A DNA stretch of 33,316 nucleotides from Bacteroidota bacterium (GTDB lineage Bacteria; Bacteroidota; Bacteroidia; UKL13-3): positions 1 through 33,316 of the forward strand of contig CANFSD010000004.1 in the NCBI GenBank assembly GCA_947449515.1, in the 5' to 3' direction. Within the stretch, counting starts at the first letter, position 1. Every line of letters starts with the position of its first letter. Positions 3,406 to 21,159 of the stretch are shown piece by piece. The translations under genes were made by a program, and so were the position numbers. A model generated the notes under the pieces. That model worked only from the letters and a program-made list of their open reading frames with translations. It was not told the origin of the DNA and made no database searches.

Positions 3406-3437
3406 ACTGCGAATGAAGACAAAAAGTAGCTACAAAA

Positions 3438-3476
3438 AAAATGCCCTTCAAAATAAATTTCAAAGGGCATTTTCTT
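3438..3476 (-). terminator. Rho-independent terminator downstream of the giant repeat-protein gene
   Basis: Stem ATGCCCTT (3441-3448) / AAGGGCAT (3463-3470) flanked by A-rich and T-rich tracts; 14 bp past the stop of the 3490-9954 gene. Confidence 0.75.
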
Positions 3477-3489
3477 TTTGATAAATATT

Positions 3490-6400
3490 TTATTGCTGTT
3501 CGGTTTGAACCAAACGAATAAATTGGGATTGATCTCCTATTTGTAATCGCAACATATAAACGGCAGCTGCGGTTCCAGCTTGGTTCGCATCAAATACATA
3601 TTCCATTTGACCGGCATGCAATACTTCTTTGTTTACAATGCTATGTACCATTCTTCCTGTTAAATCAAAAACATCTAAACTTACTTTAGCAGTAGTATTT
3701 AATACAAATGAAATTTTGGTTTCACCGCTAAAAGGATTTGGCGTTGCTTTCATTCCAAAATTGGCTGCAAATAGATCTTGCAATCCTACTTGGGTCATAT
3801 CTAAATCCATGCTACTGTCACTTGAACATCCAGCTTTACTTGTAATATGTAATTGAACTGTATATAGTCCATTTAGTGCATAGAAATGTGTAGGAACGCC
3901 AAAAGTACTTGAATCACCATCGCCAAAATACCATTTGTAATTCATACCCGATTGTGATGGATTTAAGGTAACAGCTCCACCTGATTGGAACAAGCTGAAA
4001 TAGGCGCTTGGAAGTAAGTTAACGATTAAATTACGGGAGGCCACCGCCTTACATCCTGTGCCATTCATTGAATCAAGTAAATAAATACTTGTATTACCAC
4101 TATTTGCCCAAGCCACTTGCACATTTGCGGTACCCTGACCGGCAATTACAGTACCTCCGATTGGAGTCCAAATGTATGTTCTATTTGGATTGGCAATTGT
4201 TCCGTAGTTAATAACAGCATTTGCACATACAATATTCGCACCTGAAATTAACGCTGTTGGATTAACGCCTATTGAAACCATAAATGGCAAGGTTTGTGAT
4301 TTACAACCTGTGGCAATTACACTATCTGTTACAGAAACGGATCCTGAACCCAAAGCCCCCCATAGCACATCTATGCTTGAAGTACCCTGACCAGATAAAA
4401 TAGTTCCACCAGTTACCATCCAAGTATAAACCCTTCCGGTATTGTTTGGTGTGGTATAGGTAGCCGTTGCATTCAAACAAACCATGCTTGAACCAGTAAT
4501 GATTGGCGCAGGACTCGCAACTATGCTCACCAAATAATCTGGTGTGGTTGCCATACATCCCGAACCAATTACAGAATCACTTACACTTAGCGTACCAGTT
4601 CCTATTGTACCCCACAATACATCTACACTAGCAGTTCCTTGCCCTGCAATAATTGAACCACCGCTTATTTTCCAAACATATGCCCTTCCTGTGTTTGAAG
4701 GTGTTGTATAGTTTTGGAAGGATCCGTCACAAACTGTATTCGCACCCGTTATCACAGGAGTTGGATTAGGAACCAATAAAATAGTGTATGGAGCTGTAGT
4801 TGTTTTGCAACCACCAATATTATTTGAATCAGATACAACAACACTACCTATTCCTGCAGCCCCCCATGTAATCAATATATTTGGTGTTCCTTGGCCGGCA
4901 ATAATATTTCCACCTGTAGCAGTCCATAAATACGTTCTACCTGGGTTAAATGGCGTTGTGTAGGCTGCAGAATTAGTTGCACACAAGGTGCTAGGTCCAG
5001 AAATTACAGGATTTGGGTCGGACTGAATACTAACTGTTAAAATTGGAGAAGTTCCAATGCAGCTTGATCCATTTATAGAATCTCTAACTTGAACGGTTCC
5101 AACGCCAGCAGCAGCCCAATTCACATCTATGCTTGCTGTTCCTTGACCAAAATTGATAGTTCCACCTGTTACCGACCATTTATAGGTATGTCCAGTAGCT
5201 GAAACAGTTGAATAAGTTTTCACAGACCCGGTACAAACCGTATCTCTGCCAGCTACAATTGGCGCAGGAATTGGATTGATTGTTACACCCAAACTATTTG
5301 AAAAGGCCTTACAACCTGTTGAAATACTTGAATCACTAACTACCAACGAACCAGTTCCAGCAGTACCCCATGTTACAGTAACATTTGAAGTTCCGGCACC
5401 TGCGGTAATTACACCACCAGTGATGGTCCAATTATAAATTCTACCGTTATTAAATGGTGTTGAATAATTATTACTTGCGCCTTCGCAAACATTGGCCAAA
5501 CCAGAAACAACTGGCGTAGGACTGGCATTAACGGTTACAAATACATTTGAAGAGGTGGTTTTACAGCCAGTGGCATTTACAGAATCTTTCACATTTACTA
5601 TACCAAAACCTGCAGTATTCCAGGCAACGGTTAAGCTTGAAGTACCTTGCCCTAAAATAATTGTTCCGTTTGTAACCGTCCAAATATAAGTTCTACCTGG
5701 ATTTGATGGTGTGGTATATGTTTTCACACTTGATACGCAAACATTATTGGCTCCTGTTACAACGGGCGTTGGATTTGCATTAATAGTAACCGCAAATGGC
5801 GCGGTGGTAACCTTACAAGTACTTGCATTGATAGAATCGCTCACTGTTAAGGTACCTGCACCCGCAGCCCCCCATGTTACCCTGATGCTATCAGTTGCTT
5901 GTCCAAAGTTAATAACACCACCCGAAATAGTCCAACGATAAGTATGACCTGCGTTTTTAGGTGTGATATAAGAAGTTGCACTGTTAGCACATACACTATT
6001 CAATCCTGCTATTACAGGCGTTGGCAATGCATTTAATATAACATCTGTTTGTGCACTTAAACCTTTACAACCTGTTGCTATAACAGAATCTAAAACGGTT
6101 AATGTACCCATTGGAATACCTGTATTCCAAGTAATATTGATAGTTGAAGTACCTTGACCAGAATTGATTACACCGCCTGTAACAGTCCAAACATAATACC
6201 TGCCCGTATTTGAACTTGTTGAGTAACTTGCATTACTGCTTGCACACAAGGCAACCGGACCAGCAATTATTGGGTTCGGAACAGGTAAAATGGATACCGT
6301 TAGGCTTGGCGAAATACCCACACAACCACTTGTGGTATTAGAATCTTTTAAACTAATATTACCAGTACCTGGTAAAGTCCAAGACACCAAAATACTTTCG

Positions 6401-9400
6401 GTACCTTGACCAGATACAATGGTTCCACCATTTACAATCCATTCATAAGCATGGCCTAATGCCAAGCTTGTTTGGTAAAATGCACTGCTATTGGCACAAA
6501 CAGAATCTTTACCTGTTACGCCAGGCGTAGGAACAGCATTAATAAATACATTAAATGGTAAAGTACTGCCTTTACATCCGGTAGCATTTATTGAGTCTGT
6601 TACAACCAATGTTCCAGCTCCCGCTGCACCCCAAGTTACATAAACGGTATCAGAATTTTGTCCCGATGAAATTACACCTCCAGTAACAGTCCATTGGTAA
6701 GACATTCCCGCAATTTTATTGGTGGTAAACATGGTATTACTTGAAGCACAAACTTGGCTCGGCCCACTAATTACAGGGCTTGGTAATGGATTGACAGTAA
6801 CAACTAAATTAGAACTTCTACCCTTACAACCAGTAGCATTTAAGGAATCGGAAACGTTTAATGTTCCAAAAGTAACGCCAACATTCCAAGTAACATTGAT
6901 GGCACTTGTGCCTTGTCCTGAAACAATAACACCATTGTTAACCGTCCAGGTGTAGGTATGACCAGCCACTTGTGAGGTGCTATAACCGTATGTTGAACCA
7001 GCACAAGCTCTGTTCGAACCAATTACCAGTGGGGTTGGATTTGCCAAAATACGAATGTCTTTTACAGTAGAATTTCCTTTACATCCAGTAACGGTATTTG
7101 AATCGCTTACCGACATAGTGCGCAGACCAGCTGCACCCCATGAAACATAAATACTATCTGTACCTTGACCGGTAATAATTGTTCCACCAGTAAGTGTCCA
7201 TTGGCAAACATGTCCTGTTGCATTCGGTATTTTATAGGATTGGAAACTTGAAGCACAAACCGAATCTTTCCCTAAAATAACTGGGTTAGGATTTTCGTTT
7301 ATTGAAACATTATAAACAGATGAAATGGCAAAACATCCTGTAGCATCCACAGAATCGCTTACCTGAAGCGTGCCTGTACCTGCCGCTCCCCATGTTACAT
7401 AAACACTATCTGTTGCTTGTCCAGCAGTAATGGCACCTCCTGTAATAGTCCAATTGTAGGTTCGACCCGAATTTTTAGGAGTTTTATAACTAGCACTGGT
7501 ACCAGCGCAAAGTGCAGCACGTCCCGAAACAATTGGTTTTGGAACTTTATTTAAAATAACGAGGGTATTATCTGAGCTAGGGCAACCAAATTCATCGAGT
7601 ACTTGCACAGAATAGGCCATATTCTTCTTTGCATAAATAGAAGATGTTGTTTCGCCAGTACTCCAAATATAACTGGCATAATTAGTTGTTACATCCAATA
7701 TTACACTGTCGCCGCATACTGCAGTGGTATCGCCTAAATTCAATGAGTAAGGAGTACAGAAATTAAAACCAGAAATGGTATCAGACCCAAAGGCATTGAT
7801 AACAATAATATCTCCCGAATTGCCCGAACCTAGCGTAGCACTGATTAAGGTATCTCCAGTAATGATAAATCCTGCCGCAGGTAATCCGCCAAAACTAACA
7901 AAAGAAGCGGTGGTAAAATTGGTACCGCGTATGAATACTGTTTTACCTACACCAATTGAATTGGGCGAAAATGAAATAATATTGGGAACCGCTAAATAAG
8001 TAAATCCAGAAAGCGTTACTCCACCAACAGGCGTTTGAACAAATACATTTCCACTTGCGCCAGTTGAAACAACTGCTTTAATTATACTTGGTGTATTTAC
8101 AATATTATAACTCGAAGGAACACCACCAAAATTAACCACATTAGCGCCAGTAAAGTTTGTACCTGTAATAGTTATGGTATCTCCTGTTTTGGCTGTTTTA
8201 GGGCTAAAAGAAACCAAGGTAGGATTCAGTGGTTTGTCCCAATCTGCAAATGTATACCAAGATTGTGTACCCGAAATAAAATCGGCTGAAGTCTGCGTGG
8301 CAGCAGTAGTAAAGGCAGAAACACCAATACTATCTATATTTTCAAGAACTGAAATTTTGCAGAAAGTATCATTAACCACATTTACAGATTTCGCAAAAAT
8401 TCCAGCAGCGGTACCTCCATAATAAATCTTATAACCAGCCAAATCTTCACCCGTTTTTCTATTCCAATATACCAAAACTGAATCGCCAATGATAGCTTTC
8501 AAGGGCTGAATAACTGCAGAAATTGGACAATCTAAACGAGGATTCGTTTGGTATGGAGAGAAATTGATTTGGCCCTGGTTGATATCATCCAAAACATCAT
8601 AAACAATTGCTTGTATTGCACTACTTGAAAGAACACCAGTTGTTTTCCAAAAACAATTTTGTACAGGAGCTATAATGGTATTGTCGTTATTTAACAATTG
8701 CATGAAATAGGTAAAACCTGTATTGCTCATGAAATTATTTTCAATAGCGCTTGATGGATAAGTACCTTCAAATTTAACCATTGCTGTATTGGTAGAGCCT
8801 GATTTGTTGTTAGAAAAAGCATTACGATTTAAGGCCAAAGTATTGAATGTCCCTGTATAATTCAATACAATTGGTGCACTATTATTTATGTATTGGTTGT
8901 GGTTATTGTATTGATTTCTGTTAACTTTTAAGATATCGTTAACAGCGGAGTTGTAGGCAAAAACATTTTTAGTGGCACTGTCCATTGCGCCAAAAAATCC
9001 TGAACCATTGGTTCCAGAATTTCCAAAAATAAAATTTGAAGAAAGTGAACCACCACTCAAAGTTGAAATATTGGTAATAGAATAAACACCAGCTCCAGTG
9101 GTTGCCGTGTTTTTATAAATCTTATTGTTTAAAATTTTAGCGCGGCAATTGTAATAAATACCACCACCGTTGCCAGTTACGGAATTGTTGTTTTGAAAAA
9201 TCTGGTTGTTTGTAATTCTAGCAAAAAATGCACTGTTATTGACAACAGCAATACCTGCACCGGTATTTTTTGAAATCATGCAATTATCAATGGTAGTAGC
9301 ATTTGTACTGGTTTGAATATTGATACCCGCAGCAGAGTTTGTGTAACTACCTGTACTGGTTCCTGCAGCGCAATCATGCACATAGGTATTTTTGATATAA

Positions 9401-9954
9401 ACTGGACTGGTTCCGTTTTTGGAATAAATACCAGGATAGGCTCCAAATCTAATTTCTGAATTGGTAATATAAGGGGAGGCCAAACCTGTTAGCGCAATTG
9501 ACCCAAAAACACCACTCGTAACACTACCAGCATATTCAATGATTGCATTGTTTACAATAGGACCCGAAACATAGTTGCCATTTGCATCTACCGAGGTAAC
9601 ACTTGAATTGGCTCCAAAGGAAATACCTCCCCAGAAACCTGCACTTGGGCTGTTCGTATTTGCGGTAAAGGTAATAGGTGCAATTGAAGTACCATTTGCC
9701 TTTAGTTGACCTAAAATCAACATGCTTACGTTAGCATTAAATTTAACAGTAACACCAGGGTTAATGGTTAGTGTAAATCCATTTGACATTACCAAATTAC
9801 CTGTAACAATATAGGGGCTTCCAGCCAATGTTAAGGTTGAATCAGCGTTTAGCACTCCGCTAATATTGGTTTGGGCGCTGCTAATTAAATGCTGCGCACT
9901 TAAAATTAACAATAATGAAAAACGAACAATAGTTCTGGTAAATTTTGAATCCAT
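3490..9954 (-). CDS. Giant secreted surface protein: signal peptide, right-handed beta-helix-like N-terminal region, two IPT/TIG-like domains, 14 tandem PKD-like repeats, one canonical PKD domain, type IX secretion C-terminal sorting domain
   Basis: N-terminal MDSKFTRTIVRFSLLLILSAQHLISSAQ; beta-helix-like N-rich region (ITNNQIFQNNNSVTGNGGGIYYNCRAKILNNKIYKN); IPT/TIG NPTLVSFSPKTAKTGDTITITGTNFTGANVVNFGG; YKWYFGDGDSSTFGVPTHFYALNGLYTVQLHI is PKD; C-terminus ATPNPFSGETKISFVLNTTAKVSLDVFDLTGRMVHSI...VYMLRLQIGDQSQFIRLVQ is a T9SS type A tail. Confidence 0.92.
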   Translation of the reverse strand: MDSKFTRTIVRFSLLLILSAQHLISSAQTNISGVLNADSTLTLAGSPYIVTGNLVMSNGFTLTINPGVTVKFNANVSMLILGQLKANGTSIAPITFTANTNSPSAGFWGGISFGANSSVTSVDANGNYVSGPIVNNAIIEYAGSVTSGVFGSIALTGLASPYITNSEIRFGAYPGIYSKNGTSPVYIKNTYVHDCAAGTSTGSYTNSAAGINIQTSTNATTIDNCMISKNTGAGIAVVNNSAFFARITNNQIFQNNNSVTGNGGGIYYNCRAKILNNKIYKNTATTGAGVYSITNISTLSGGSLSSNFIFGNSGTNGSGFFGAMDSATKNVFAYNSAVNDILKVNRNQYNNHNQYINNSAPIVLNYTGTFNTLALNRNAFSNNKSGSTNTAMVKFEGTYPSSAIENNFMSNTGFTYFMQLLNNDNTIIAPVQNCFWKTTGVLSSSAIQAIVYDVLDDINQGQINFSPYQTNPRLDCPISAVIQPLKAIIGDSVLVYWNRKTGEDLAGYKIYYGGTAAGIFAKSVNVVNDTFCKISVLENIDSIGVSAFTTAATQTSADFISGTQSWYTFADWDKPLNPTLVSFSPKTAKTGDTITITGTNFTGANVVNFGGVPSSYNIVNTPSIIKAVVSTGASGNVFVQTPVGGVTLSGFTYLAVPNIISFSPNSIGVGKTVFIRGTNFTTASFVSFGGLPAAGFIITGDTLISATLGSGNSGDIIVINAFGSDTISGFNFCTPYSLNLGDTTAVCGDSVILDVTTNYASYIWSTGETTSSIYAKKNMAYSVQVLDEFGCPSSDNTLVILNKVPKPIVSGRAALCAGTSASYKTPKNSGRTYNWTITGGAITAGQATDSVYVTWGAAGTGTLQVSDSVDATGCFAISSVYNVSINENPNPVILGKDSVCASSFQSYKIPNATGHVCQWTLTGGTIITGQGTDSIYVSWGAAGLRTMSVSDSNTVTGCKGNSTVKDIRILANPTPLVIGSNRACAGSTYGYSTSQVAGHTYTWTVNNGVIVSGQGTSAINVTWNVGVTFGTLNVSDSLNATGCKGRSSNLVVTVNPLPSPVISGPSQVCASSNTMFTTNKIAGMSYQWTVTGGVISSGQNSDTVYVTWGAAGAGTLVVTDSINATGCKGSTLPFNVFINAVPTPGVTGKDSVCANSSAFYQTSLALGHAYEWIVNGGTIVSGQGTESILVSWTLPGTGNISLKDSNTTSGCVGISPSLTVSILPVPNPIIAGPVALCASSNASYSTSSNTGRYYVWTVTGGVINSGQGTSTINITWNTGIPMGTLTVLDSVIATGCKGLSAQTDVILNALPTPVIAGLNSVCANSATSYITPKNAGHTYRWTISGGVINFGQATDSIRVTWGAAGAGTLTVSDSINASTCKVTTAPFAVTINANPTPVVTGANNVCVSSVKTYTTPSNPGRTYIWTVTNGTIILGQGTSSLTVAWNTAGFGIVNVKDSVNATGCKTTSSNVFVTVNASPTPVVSGLANVCEGASNNYSTPFNNGRIYNWTITGGVITAGAGTSNVTVTWGTAGTGSLVVSDSSISTGCKAFSNSLGVTINPIPAPIVAGRDTVCTGSVKTYSTVSATGHTYKWSVTGGTINFGQGTASIDVNWAAAGVGTVQVRDSINGSSCIGTSPILTVSIQSDPNPVISGPSTLCATNSAAYTTPFNPGRTYLWTATGGNIIAGQGTPNILITWGAAGIGSVVVSDSNNIGGCKTTTAPYTILLVPNPTPVITGANTVCDGSFQNYTTPSNTGRAYVWKISGGSIIAGQGTASVDVLWGTIGTGTLSVSDSVIGSGCMATTPDYLVSIVASPAPIITGSSMVCLNATATYTTPNNTGRVYTWMVTGGTILSGQGTSSIDVLWGALGSGSVSVTDSVIATGCKSQTLPFMVSIGVNPTALISGANIVCANAVINYGTIANPNRTYIWTPIGGTVIAGQGTANVQVAWANSGNTSIYLLDSMNGTGCKAVASRNLIVNLLPSAYFSLFQSGGAVTLNPSQSGMNYKWYFGDGDSSTFGVPTHFYALNGLYTVQLHITSKAGCSSDSSMDLDMTQVGLQDLFAANFGMKATPNPFSGETKISFVLNTTAKVSLDVFDLTGRMVHSIVNKEVLHAGQMEYVFDANQAGTAAAVYMLRLQIGDQSQFIRLVQTEQQ
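4015..7545 (-). repeat. Coding tandem array: 14 copies of ~84-aa (~252-bp) PKD-like repeat
   Basis: Each unit follows xPxPVIxGxxxVCxxSxxxYxTxxxxGRxYxWTVTGGxIxxGQGTxxIxVxWGxAGxGTLxVSDSxxxTGCKxxxxxxxVxI; 3531 bp / 14 = 252.2 bp. Confidence 0.9.
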
Positions 9955-14615: not shown

Positions 14616-15998
14616 ATGAAAGGTGTTATTTCAGAAAATATGCCGCTAACGGCAAGCAGAAACCTCTATATTGAAACCTATGGCTGTGCCATGAATTTAG
14701 CAGACAGTGAGGTAGTTGCTTCCATTATGGCCGACCAAAATTTCAAAACAACTAATAATATTGAAGAGGCAGATGTGATTTTTGTAAATACCTGCTCAAT
14801 AAGAGACAATGCCGAGGCGCATATTTGGGGACGACTAAAAGAAATGCGCCCGCACAAAAGAAACAAACCCAATATGATTATTGGCGTTTTAGGCTGCATG
14901 GCAGAACGCTTAAAAACCCAATTACTAGAAAAAGAACAAGTGATTGATTTGGTGGTTGGCCCAGATGCATACCGAGATATTCCGCAATTAATTGCCCAAG
15001 TTGAAGACGGACAAAAGGCTGTAAATACTTTATTATCTAGGGAAGAAACCTATGCAGAAATCTCTCCTGTAAGGTTAAGTTCAAACGGAATTACGGCATT
15101 TATAAGCATCATGCGCGGCTGTGACAATATGTGTTCCTTCTGTGTGGTGCCATTTACCCGCGGAAGAGAAAGAAGCAGAAGTGCCGAATCTATTATTAAA
15201 GAAGCCCTTGAACTTTACCAAGGTGGCTATAAAGAGGTTACCTTATTAGGCCAAAACGTTGATTCCTACAAAGAATTAGATGAAGCTGGAAATACTATTT
15301 GCACCTTTGCCCAATTGCTTGAAAAGGTGGCTCAGATTGCCCCAGACCTACGCGTGCGCTTTAGCAGTTCCCATCCAAAAGACATTACCGACGAGGTATT
15401 GTATACCATGAAAAAGTATAAGAATATTTGCAAGCACATTCATTATCCTATTCAATCGGGAAATACCAGGGTCTTAGAATTAATGAACCGAACTTATGAC
15501 CATGAATGGCTTAAAATGCGTTTGGATAAAATTAAAGAAGTGATCCCTAATTGTGGCATTTCTACAGATTCTATATCTGGCTTTTGCACCGAAACAGAAG
15601 AAGAACACAAAGACACATTAGAATTATTTAGGTATGGCCAATTTAATTTCGCCTATATGTACCAATATAGCGAACGCCCAGGAACACTAGCATCTAGAAG
15701 ATACCCAGATGATATTCCTGCCGATGTAAAACTAAGAAGGTTACAAGAAATCATTTCTCTTCAACACGAAAACAGTAAACGTATTAACGCTGCTTTAGAA
15801 GGTCAAATTGTTACTGTATTAATTGAAGGACTCTCCAAGAAATCGGCAAATGATTTAAGAGGTAGAAGCGACCAGAATGCCATTGTAATTTTCCCGAAAG
15901 AGCATTACGAAAAAGGGCAATATGTAAAAGTGAAAATAGAAAAAAGTACCATCACCAGTTTAATTGGAAAAGTTGTAGAAGTGATACCACACCCATAA
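14616..15998 (+). CDS. miaB: tRNA-2-methylthio-N6-dimethylallyladenosine synthase MiaB
   Basis: [39 protein letters not shown] (radical SAM CxxxCxxC), GQNVDSY, C-terminal TRAM-like region. Confidence 0.97.
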
Positions 15999-16002
15999 AA
16001 AA

Positions 16003-17298
16003 ATGGCAGCCGATATGTTTTTTACCCAATGGGATTCCTTTCTCTACAATTACCATTTGTATTATAGGAATTTAAATGAATCGGGTAAAAAACGCTTTGT
16101 AAAAAGAGTAAATTCAATCCTTAACAACCTAACTATCATAGGCAAAGAGGGATTGCAAGTAACGGCCGAAATAAAAATATTGGTGGTAGCCAATCTGGTT
16201 CAACTCACGTTTGGACTAAAAAACTATTGGCTTTATGGTTATGAATATATTTACCTCTACCCAGAAAGTTTTTCCTTGCCAAATCAAAATGAAGCCGTTG
16301 CGGGATCTACCTTTCAGCAGAAAATAATTGCTTTGTCGTGGCGCAATTTTGCGATCGACCATTTAAAAGCAAACGATGGGCATAATATTAGTTTAGCACA
16401 ATATGCCTTAGGATTAATTCAAACGGTATTTAATGGCAACCGTTACGACCAAAAATTTGGTAGTTATATAGATACTTGGTTCGAGATTATTAACAAAGAA
16501 ATTGCCCTGAAAGTCAATAATGACGGATTTGGAGGATTGGAGTATACCTCGGATAATATTAAACCAACCTTTGCCAAATGCGTTGAATTGTTTTTTGAGA
16601 AACCAAGCTTCTTTAAAAAGGAATTACCTACCTCCTACGCACATTTTTGTTTATTGCTGAACCAAGACCCCTTAAATGTGAGTGAAAACTACGCATATAA
16701 TTTGGAACGCATAAGCAAAAAAAATGTATTAAGTCCCTTACCCAAATTCATTTCAATCCATTATAAATACAAAGATTGGCACTGGATATACAACCTTCCA
16801 TTTATAGGTATTTTCACCACCCCACTGCTATTATTTTACCTAACAGAAAACTTATTGGTTCGAACCGAACACATTTTATTAATAATGTTTATTGTTGGCA
16901 GTGTTTTGGCCATCAGTTTTTATAAACCACTGCAACAAATTTACCTGTTTAAAAATTTTGGCTTATTGTGGTTAAGCAGTATTTGCGGATATGGACCACT
17001 ATTGGTTGGATCGTTATTGAGCATTAACCAAATCCATGGCTATGATTTTTCTGCAGAGTATAGTAAACACCAGGTGGCCAGCTATTACTTAAAGGAAATT
17101 CCCAGCAATCCAAAGGAGGCACGGCAAATTGTATTTAATTTCAGCGACGATTACCTAATAGACTTCCCTAAAGCCAGAACCTTCGATTTCAATTCACAAC
17201 CCCGTACTAATAAACTGACATTTTTTAACGAAATAGGCTATGAAATACGCCATGGATTAATTGGCATACCTATTGTAACAAAGAGAGAATTATTTTAA
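16003..17298 (+). CDS. MtfA/M90-like protein with degenerate active site, fused to C-terminal TM segments
   Basis: Region LSWRNFAIDHLKANDGHNISLAQYALGLIQ...FAKCVELFFEKPSFFKKELPTSYAHFCLLLNQDPL follows the MtfA fold pattern, but HExxH is AQYAL; hydrophobic stretches FIGIFTTPLLLFYLTENLL, ILLIMFIVGSVLAISFY and FGLLWLSSICGYGPLLVGSLL. Confidence 0.7.
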   Translation: MAADMFFTQWDSFLYNYHLYYRNLNESGKKRFVKRVNSILNNLTIIGKEGLQVTAEIKILVVANLVQLTFGLKNYWLYGYEYIYLYPESFSLPNQNEAVAGSTFQQKIIALSWRNFAIDHLKANDGHNISLAQYALGLIQTVFNGNRYDQKFGSYIDTWFEIINKEIALKVNNDGFGGLEYTSDNIKPTFAKCVELFFEKPSFFKKELPTSYAHFCLLLNQDPLNVSENYAYNLERISKKNVLSPLPKFISIHYKYKDWHWIYNLPFIGIFTTPLLLFYLTENLLVRTEHILLIMFIVGSVLAISFYKPLQQIYLFKNFGLLWLSSICGYGPLLVGSLLSINQIHGYDFSAEYSKHQVASYYLKEIPSNPKEARQIVFNFSDDYLIDFPKARTFDFNSQPRTNKLTFFNEIGYEIRHGLIGIPIVTKRELF

Positions 17299-17299
17299 T

Positions 17300-18535
17300 A
17301 TGAACCTACAAGACATAAAACAACGATTTGAAATTATAGGTAACTCCCCCCTATTAAATATTGCCCTTGAAACTGCTGTAAAAGTGGCAGCAACAGATAT
17401 TACCGTTCTTATTAATGGCGAAAGTGGTGTGGGAAAAGAAGCCTTTTCAAAGATTATACATGCCCTAAGCAATAGAAAACATGGTCCGTTTATAGCTGTT
17501 AACTGCGGTGCAATTCCTGAAGGAACTATAGATAGTGAATTGTTTGGCCATGAAAAAGGATCTTTTACGGGTGCCCATGACACACGTAAAGGTTATTTTG
17601 AAACCGTAAGCGGCGGAACTATTTTCTTGGATGAAATTGGAGAACTGCCCTTAGAAACACAAGCCAGGCTTCTCCGCATTTTAGAAAGTGGCGAATTTAT
17701 TAAAGTTGGTTCGAGCAAAGTACAGAAAACAGATGTGCGCATTGTAGCTGCAACCAATAAGGATTTGATGGATTTATCGTACAAAGGTAAATTTAGAGAA
17801 GACCTTTATTACAGGCTTTCTACAGTGCCTATTAAAGTTCCTTCTTTAAGAGACCGCAAAGAGGATATCCATATTCTATTTAGAAAGTTTAGCGCAGATT
17901 TTGCCGAAAAATATCGCTCAAAACCTGTTACTTTAGAAGGAGATGCCTTGCAAATTTTACAACATTATAGTTGGCCTGGAAATATTAGACAATTGAAAAA
18001 TATTGCAGAGCAACTGTCTGTTTTGGATGAGGACAAAATTGTAAATGGTCCAGAACTCAGCAGGGTATTGCCCCCTGAAAAGCCAGGATTACCTATGCTC
18101 ATTGGCTCACATGCGCCTGAACAACAATTCAGCGAACGAGATATTTTCTACAAAGTTCTCTATGATTTGCGCAAAGATTTAAGCGACTTAAAATCGATTG
18201 TTTTTGACCTAATGCAAGGCAATCAAATGGCAAATTCCAATGAAGTTGCCAAAAATTTTAACAGCAATTTTGTAAGGGAAGAAATGAATACCAACCAAAG
18301 CAACAACAACTTTGTTAGTATCCCTACCCCTGTTAGTAATAACAGCAGCCCTCAAATAATAGATATTACAGAGGCGCAGGCAGAGCCTGAGTCATTAAGT
18401 TTAGAAGACAAAGAAATAGAGTTAATTAGAAAAAGTTTGAAGAAGCACAATGGCAAACGCAAGAAGGCCGCGCAAGAATTGGGTATTTCTGAACGAACCC
18501 TCTATAGAAAAATTAAACAATACGATTTAGAATAA
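17300..18535 (+). CDS. Sigma-54-dependent Fis-family transcriptional activator without receiver or sensor domain
   Basis: INGESGVGKE (Walker A), ELFGHEKGSFTGAHD (GAFTGA-type loop), GGTIFLDEIGELPLETQARLLR; C-terminal Fis HTH KKHNGKRKKAAQELGISERTLYRKIKQYDL. Confidence 0.95.
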   Translation: MNLQDIKQRFEIIGNSPLLNIALETAVKVAATDITVLINGESGVGKEAFSKIIHALSNRKHGPFIAVNCGAIPEGTIDSELFGHEKGSFTGAHDTRKGYFETVSGGTIFLDEIGELPLETQARLLRILESGEFIKVGSSKVQKTDVRIVAATNKDLMDLSYKGKFREDLYYRLSTVPIKVPSLRDRKEDIHILFRKFSADFAEKYRSKPVTLEGDALQILQHYSWPGNIRQLKNIAEQLSVLDEDKIVNGPELSRVLPPEKPGLPMLIGSHAPEQQFSERDIFYKVLYDLRKDLSDLKSIVFDLMQGNQMANSNEVAKNFNSNFVREEMNTNQSNNNFVSIPTPVSNNSSPQIIDITEAQAEPESLSLEDKEIELIRKSLKKHNGKRKKAAQELGISERTLYRKIKQYDLE

Positions 18536-18591: not shown

Positions 18592-21159
18592 TTAGTGTTT
18601 GCATTCTTTTTTTGCATCACCTTCTGCACAACATTTCCCTTTTGGAGCAGCAGCTTCATGTGATTTAACACACTCATCGCCGCAGCTTTTTGTACATGCT
18701 TCTGCAGATTCACATCCTTTTTTGCAATTTTCCATGCAAGCTCCTTCAACAGTTGAATGGTGTTTGCTGCAAGTACTAGATTCCATTGAGCAATCCATTT
18801 TTGCTTTGCACATTTCTTTGCATTTGGCTTCATCAAATTTACCATCTGCGCCATACATGCTTAAGCACATTTCTTTTTGCTCAGCAGAACAAGCATTGCT
18901 ATCGCAATAAGCAGCGCATTCCTCTTTGGTCATGGTCATGCAACGACTTAAATCGCAATTACCCATTTTAACGCCACAATGAGCAGATGCCATTGCATCA
19001 CATTGTTCCATTTGGGCACCGTCCATTTTGCATTGACCTTTAGTCATACCACCTTCTACAGCGATATAAGGAGCAATTACCAATGAAACGATTGACATTA
19101 ATTTAATTAAGATATTCATTGAAGGACCAGAAGTATCTTTAAATGGATCACCAACGGTATCACCAGTTACAGAAGCTTTATGTGGCTCAGATTTTTTGTA
19201 GAACATTTCGCCATTGATCATAACGCCTTTTTCAAATGATTTCTTAGCATTATCCCAAGCACCACCGGCATTTGATTGGAAAATACCCATCAATACACCA
19301 CTAACGGTAACACCTGCCAATAAACCACCTAATACTTCAGGACCAAAAGTAAAGCCTACAATTACAGGAGTAATTAAAGCAATGGCTCCAGGTAACATCA
19401 TTTCACGGATAGAGGCTTTGGTAGAAATAGCAACACATTTTTCGTATTCAGGTTTAGCTTTGTATTCCATGATACCAGGAATTTCGCGGAACTGACGACG
19501 AACTTCTTGAACCATATCCATTGCAGCTTTACCTACCGCTTGAATGCACAATGCTGAGAAAATAAATGGAATCATACCACCTACAAATAAACCAGCCAAT
19601 ACAGGTGCTTTGTAAATATCAATGGCATCAATACCAGCAATACCAACAAATGCAGCAAACAATGCCAATGAGGTTAAGGCTGCAGACGCAATTGCAAATC
19701 CTTTACCAGTTGCAGCAGTGGTATTACCAACAGCATCCAAATTATCTGTACGCTCACGAACTTCTGGAGGTAATTGACTCATTTCTGCAATACCACCTGC
19801 ATTATCAGCAATAGGTCCAAATGCATCAATTGCTAATTGCATAGCAGTTGTGGCCATCATACCGGCAGCAGCAATAGCAACACCATATAAACCTGCAAAA
19901 TGGTAAGATAACATAATACCACCCGCCAAGGTTAAAACAGGAATAACAGTTGATTTCATACCTACTGATAAACCACCAATGATATTGGTAGCATGTCCAG
20001 TAGAAGATTGTTGAATAATAGACATTACAGGTGCTTTACCCATTGCAGTGTAGTATTCTGTTACAATACTCATGATGGCACCTACTACAGTACCAACCAA
20101 GATTGCATAGAAAACACTGATTTTTGAGAATTCATACCCACGTAAATTTAATGTTTCAGGTAACATCCAATTTACTACAAAGTAAGAAGCAGCAACCGTC
20201 AATAACATTGAAGACCAGTTTCCTAGGTTCAAAGCATTTTGTACACTTGACTTATCATCTTTAATGGTAACGAACCAAGTACCAACAATTGAGAACAATA
20301 TACCAAGACCACAAATGATCATTGGCAACAAGATGGGAGATAAACCACCAAAATTATCTGTAACCACTATTTCTTGTCCCAAAACCATGGTAGCAAGAAT
20401 GGTAGCAACATATGAACCAAATAAATCGGCACCCATACCAGCAACGTCACCCACGTTGTCTCCAACATTATCTGCAATAGTTGCAGGGTTACGCACATCA
20501 TCTTCAGGAATACCTGCTTCTACTTTACCCACTAAATCTGCACCCACATCGGCAGCTTTGGTATAAATACCTCCACCAACACGTGCGAATAATGCAATAG
20601 ATTCAGCTCCTAATGAGAAGCCTGTTAATACCTCAATTGCGGTTTTAACAGTATCTGCGCCTAAATCAGCAAAATAACTTAAGAAGGCAATAAATAAGCC
20701 ACCTAAACCCAAAACAGCTAAACCAGCTACACCTAATCCCATTACAGTACCACCTGTAAATGAAACTTTTAAAGCTTGTTTTAAACTGGTACGTGCAGCT
20801 TGTGTTGTACGTACGTTTGCTTTGGTAGCAACCTTCATTCCAATATAACCAGCAGTTGCAGAGAATACTGCACCAATGATAAATGCAATAGAAATTACCC
20901 AACTAGAGTGGATTGGTTTTCCATTTATTTCATGAATAGTACCTGAATAAGCCAATAATGCGGCAGCAAAGGTTACAAAGATGCCCAATACTTTCCATTC
21001 AGCTTTCAAGAAGGCCATAGCACCATCTGCTATGTAACCAGCTAGTTCTTGCATTTTAGCATCACCAGCATCTTGCTTAGAAACCCAAGCACTTTTAATG
21101 GCCATTACAATTAGGCCAACTACCCCAAGGGCAGGAACTAGATAAATCAGTTGCGTCAT
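18592..21159 (-). CDS. hppA: Membrane-bound (sodium/proton-translocating) pyrophosphatase with Cys-rich C-terminal extension
   Basis: [107 protein letters not shown] suggests the K+-dependent subfamily. Residues after ...[10 protein letters not shown] form a Cys-rich tail. Confidence 0.95.

Follow-up and report, generated by a model that had tools for sequence, protein, structure and literature searches.

MtfA (YeeI, Mlc titration factor A; MEROPS family M90, PF06167) sequesters the regulator Mlc in E. coli. The gene mtfA is named as the Mlc titration factor (PMC5798407). The group 4 sigma-54 activators (bEBPs), such as PspF and HrpR/S, have no regulatory (R) domain, and a review tabulates them as regulated in trans through the binding of another protein (PMC7175178, table). 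In the case of PspF, stress brings PspA to the membrane and the activator is set free; the Trp56 loop of PspF contacts PspA (PMC6003685). Among metallopeptidases, pseudoenzymes are described in the ADAM, M14 and M16 families, where the zinc ligands are lost, the fold is kept and purifying selection acts, and pseudopeptidases often act on active relatives (PMC11266112). M90 and MtfA are absent from that review, and a literature search on M90 pseudo-peptidases found nothing directly relevant.

Here, a pseudo-M90 gene carried by freshwater Bacteroidota is described. It lies in a 33,316-nt stretch of DNA (the window; contig CANFSD010000004.1, assembly GCA_947449515.1) of a Bacteroidota bacterium (UKL13-3), between miaB and a sigma-54 activator gene:

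14616..15998, plus strand: miaB (tRNA methylthiotransferase), upstream operon gene, conserved class-wide as a pair with the activator
16003..17298, plus strand: pseudo-M90 (MtfA-fold) membrane protein, 431 aa (ORF, Pfam, phmmer, model, Foldseek)
16012..16647, plus strand: M90 domain, residues 4-215, predicted cytoplasmic (Pfam; side from flanking-loop charge)
16396..16410, plus strand: former HExxH, now AQYAL, residues 132-136 (alignment of 24 dead homologues, 86 HExxH homologues and E. coli MtfA)
16564..16566, plus strand: third zinc ligand position (E212 of MtfA), now Pro188 (same alignment)
16783..16842, plus strand: TM helix 1, residues 261-280 (model)
16864..16938, plus strand: TM helix 2, residues 288-312 (model)
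16957..17028, plus strand: TM helix 3, residues 319-342 (model)
17050..17295, plus strand: C-terminal beta-rich domain, residues 350-431, predicted periplasmic (model; loop charges)
17300..18535, plus strand: sigma-54 activator (bEBP), 411 aa, without N-terminal regulatory domain (Pfam; GSFTGA and Walker A motifs)

The pseudo-M90 ORF runs from an ATG at 16003 to a stop ending at 17298. It starts 4 bp after miaB, and a single base pair separates its stop from the activator ATG at 17300, the same spacing as in the first-pass annotation of this DNA. Three matches to sigma-54 -24/-12 promoters occur in the window where 3.1 are expected, which is no signal. Two minus-strand genes elsewhere in the window deserve mention. 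The first (18592-21159) encodes an 855-aa protein resembling membrane pyrophosphatases, whose C-terminal tail is rich in Cys (20 after residue 720, many in CxxxC-type spacings). The tail is kept in relatives L052-L055, L059, L077 and L079, which have 11-22 Cys among their final 150 residues, and it may be a domain, fused to the pump, that binds metal or forms disulfides. The second (3490-9954) encodes a 2154-aa protein with many repeated domains of ~85-90 residues and a C-terminal tail that, by eye, resembles a type IX secretion signal.

The relation to MtfA was first proposed from the letters of the DNA, and homology and fold now place the protein in the M90 (MtfA-fold) family beyond doubt. 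The Pfam profile PF06167 (Peptidase_M90) matches residues 4-215 (E 6.6e-18; 65.6 bits against a cut-off of 26.2), and phmmer against solved MtfA chains gives 4e-05 and 2e-04. An AlphaFold model built with 24 homologues (pLDDT 87, pTM 0.78) retrieves in Foldseek the Klebsiella MtfA structures 3dl1 (E 1.4e-8) and 3khi (9e-8) as the sole significant PDB matches, with a TM-score to 3dl1 of 0.71 normalised on the target (~0.7 for the MtfA entries). The homologous fold covers the M90 domain. Differently from MtfA/YeeI, pseudo-M90 lacks both the HExxH motif and the Glu ligand, carries three TM helices and a C-terminal domain, and has another gene neighbourhood. It is neither an M90 peptidase, its ligands being gone, nor MtfA proper, since it misses the cut-off of the NCBIfam MtfA equivalog NF011939 (35.7 against 400 bits).

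In the model, the three TM helices precede the beta-rich C-terminal domain. Across the clade of dead homologues, the K+R/D+E counts of the loops are 3.5/0.6 before TM1, 0.5/1.5 in loop 1 and 2.0/0.8 in loop 2, which puts the M90 domain on the cytoplasmic side of the inner membrane, where the protein is predicted to sit, and the C-terminal domain on the periplasmic side. The first-pass annotation had seen two to three hydrophobic segments and an unfamiliar C-terminal domain. The segments are now modelled as three helices, but the domain is no peculiarity of this protein, because the same full-length architecture is seen in HExxH relatives belonging to other families in the class (e.g., L026-L030, L076). 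The M90-TM-C-terminal arrangement is therefore ancestral, a trait of the wider group rather than of the dead branch. These Bacteroidia HExxH proteins keep all ligands and lie away from the activator, and in many of them a further TM helix stands at the N-terminus. For L076, a Flavobacteriales MAG, the HExxH M90-TM gene (3406-4857) overlaps at its stop with a gene for an NfeD1b membrane protease (4857-6248); the two products may form a functional pair.

The active site is lost completely. In the MtfA numbering reportedly used by Xu et al. in 2012 (H149, E150, H153, E212), which was re-derived by counting along solved MtfA chains, the zinc ligands and the catalytic Glu are all replaced relative to E. 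coli MtfA: H149 by A132, E150 by Q133, H153 by L136 and E212 by P188. The alignment thus bears out the earlier reading that HExxH had become AQYAL and that the later Glu ligand was missing. HExxH is retained by none of the 24 clade homologues, 20 of which have Gln at E150, and Glu stands at the E212 position in 3/24 of them as against all 86 HExxH relatives. Relatives that keep the motif had been proposed as a point to check, and elsewhere in the class 86 of the 88 M90 homologues fetched do so. The two exceptions (L126:395-1693 and L159:464-1879) are independent M90 proteins without HExxH, encoded in other families within the class. In L126 the later Glu ligand (EFFA) is still present, and the same genome carries another M90 copy; neither of the two dead copies adjoins the activator.

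The 24 usable homologues from the miaB-activator slot are all dead and form one clade in a maximum-likelihood tree (support 100/100). Sequence comparison within this clade indicates purifying selection on the dead gene: dN/dS is 0.03-0.14 for pairs with dS < 0.75, and 34 columns are invariant across 23 sequences. New invariant residues appear in the dead M90 domain (N144, G145, S154, A213), although the list of residues more conserved in the dead set compares one family with a whole class, is biased to the dead set and is only indicative. A monophyletic dead clade under purifying selection argues that pseudo-M90 is functional without catalysis.

What could such a protein do beside an activator? 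The activator itself consists of Sigma54_activat (residues 12-178) and HTH_8 (368-408) in Pfam, with the AAA+ region starting at residue 12, a GSFTGA motif (a variant of GAFTGA) and Walker A GESGVGK. The Pfam search finds no receiver, GAF or PAS domain, in agreement with the original description of a sensorless activator, and by sequence the protein fits the architectural definition of bEBP group 4 (no R domain). The segment that we take to be the equivalent of the PspF Trp56 loop, RKHGPFI, does not look conserved, which counts against a regulator of the PspA kind. A literature search on the Bacteroidota activator beside miaB found no known input.

Every clade homologue is paired with this activator, lying directly upstream of it wherever the contig reaches far enough, as the first-pass annotation would predict. 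In 22/22 measurable loci the distance from pseudo-M90 to the activator lies between -20 and +4 bp, and the distance from miaB is 1-75 bp; the activator reading frame of L022 is broken in the assembly, and this locus stands outside the 22. From the fixed close spacing, translational coupling of pseudo-M90 and activator is likely. In L051-L077, miaB and the activator also flank the gene where the contig reaches, the exception being the HExxH relative L076. A Fic gene is inserted between miaB and pseudo-M90 in L071, and pseudo-M90 stayed beside the activator.

The converse does not hold. Activator orthologues occur in 91/98 relatives (rpoN in 59/60) and the miaB-activator pair over a large part of the class, whereas pseudo-M90 is limited to part of family f1 and is hence no constant partner of the activator. 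The class-wide pair is far older than the pseudo-M90 insertion. Outside family f1 it is followed by lptE in both genomes checked (L096, L097), and in family f1 genomes without pseudo-M90 the two genes abut, usually with 2-60 bp between them. The activator tree has at least six presence/absence changes of pseudo-M90 on well-supported branches, eight in all. As the dead clade has a single origin in the same slot, these changes are read as losses, so that, judging from the sequences, a single insertion of the gene was followed by at least about six losses. It is dispensable, and the activator is barely changed by its absence: sister activators with and without pseudo-M90 are nearly identical (G043 and G053), and no consistent substitutions accompany loss, the only activator sites that change being variable linker positions. 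Median genome size is 3.4 Mb with and 2.6 Mb without pseudo-M90 (Mann-Whitney p 0.001, uncorrected for kinship); smaller genomes on loss are expected of an accessory function. The slot accepts unrelated genes too, since a Fic gene fills it in G038, and insertions seem to have hit the miaB-activator junction repeatedly. Fic-domain genes follow miaB in two genomes (L071:3281-4678, L089:2400-3749).

The first-pass annotation suggested that pseudo-M90 could be the membrane-bound regulator of its neighbouring activator. Part of this proposal stands, namely a dead, membrane-anchored M90 protein tightly paired with a group 4 bEBP, and neither outcome named beforehand as fatal to it (a predicted structure unrelated to M90, homologues never next to the activator) came about. 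However, pseudo-M90 cannot be the sole, obligatory regulator, because the pair exists class-wide without it and repeated losses leave the activator barely changed; rate covariation, too, is unspecific. The reading that we favour, at a probability of roughly 0.45, is by analogy that of a membrane protein which regulates the activator in trans as an accessory input, similar to PspA for PspF. A cytoplasmic domain of binding type, a periplasmic domain and close coding to a sensorless activator all fit PspA-PspF logic. Both systems have a sigma-54 activator without a regulatory domain, and here there is a candidate gene for a membrane-associated partner. Differently from PspF-PspA, the candidate is an M90 pseudo-peptidase rather than a coiled coil like PspA, its absence does not cost the genome the activator, and the partnership is proposed from gene pairing.

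On this reading, a Bacteroidia-type M90 metallopeptidase, with its M90 domain, three TM helices and C-terminal beta domain, entered the miaB-activator operon once, in the family ancestor, and lost its zinc site to become a neofunctionalised pseudo-peptidase. Since then it has been retained as a membrane protein, presumably coupled in translation to the sensorless activator. The cytoplasmic pseudo-M90 domain most likely binds the activator, holding it at the membrane or inhibiting it; inhibition as the sign of the effect is a guess by analogy with PspA. The periplasmic C-terminal domain may pass on a signal from the envelope, in the way that PspA and PspBC serve PspF, and this input to the activator would be accessory rather than obligatory. 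The more specific proposal, that a membrane pseudo-metallopeptidase with a periplasmic sensing domain receives signals in trans for a sigma-54 activator that has no sensor, is put forward tentatively, as somewhat less than an even bet.

Alternatively, pseudo-M90 may be a passenger of the operon, with an envelope or scaffold function of its own, co-expressed through one insertion into an old operon and making no contact with the activator. This is the main rival and a substantial possibility. One insertion and vertical inheritance thereafter would be enough to yield perfect linkage, and the passenger explanation also accommodates an activator indifferent to the loss of its neighbour, the smaller genomes that accompany loss and the Fic genes held by the same slot in two other genomes. 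Rate covariation points the same way. A mirror-tree signal between M90 and activator (partial r 0.82 given miaB) was dropped after a tree-corrected re-test with a fixed species tree and three control genes, in which the M90-activator covariation has a rho of 0.31 (p 0.08) and that of M90 with miaB 0.53; rate covariation gives no link specific to the activator. However, pseudo-M90 is never found apart from the activator where the contig reaches, down to ~30% identity. Its spacing is much tighter to the activator than to miaB, and it remained with the activator when the Fic gene came in.

It is also conceivable, though unlikely, that pseudo-M90 serves some other target as sensor or adaptor, for instance a ROK-type repressor (the MtfA-Mlc arrangement) or a different regulator, which it would bind through the retained M90 surface. 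The MtfA-Mlc precedent in E. coli and the retained fold speak for this role, but the missed MtfA equivalog does not, and no ROK repressor is recognised among the genes next to dead copies at the slot. Control or scaffolding of an active M90 cousin, the usual role of a pseudo-protease, is very improbable: an HExxH copy is also present in 7/25 host genomes, but 18/25 have no other M90 (some of these genomes are incomplete, the window's own being at 68%), which largely refutes it. A decaying pseudogene, or a misread or frameshifted peptidase, could be suspected from the repeated losses and the missing catalytic motif, but is refuted by ORFs that are intact in relatives, the low dN/dS and the invariant residues outside the active site.

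The accessory regulator remains our preferred reading. Compared with the ADAM, M14 and M16 pseudopeptidases, whose loss of zinc ligands, kept fold and purifying selection it shares, pseudo-M90 is bacterial, belongs to M90 and is linked to a transcription activator. If it binds that activator, one lineage would have a concrete, testable input to it, and the repeated natural losses provide ready-made comparisons with and without the partner among close genomes. A transmembrane pseudo-protease would then join the short list of trans-acting bEBP regulators, as a protein family new to bEBP control and the first pseudo-M90 with a regulatory role.
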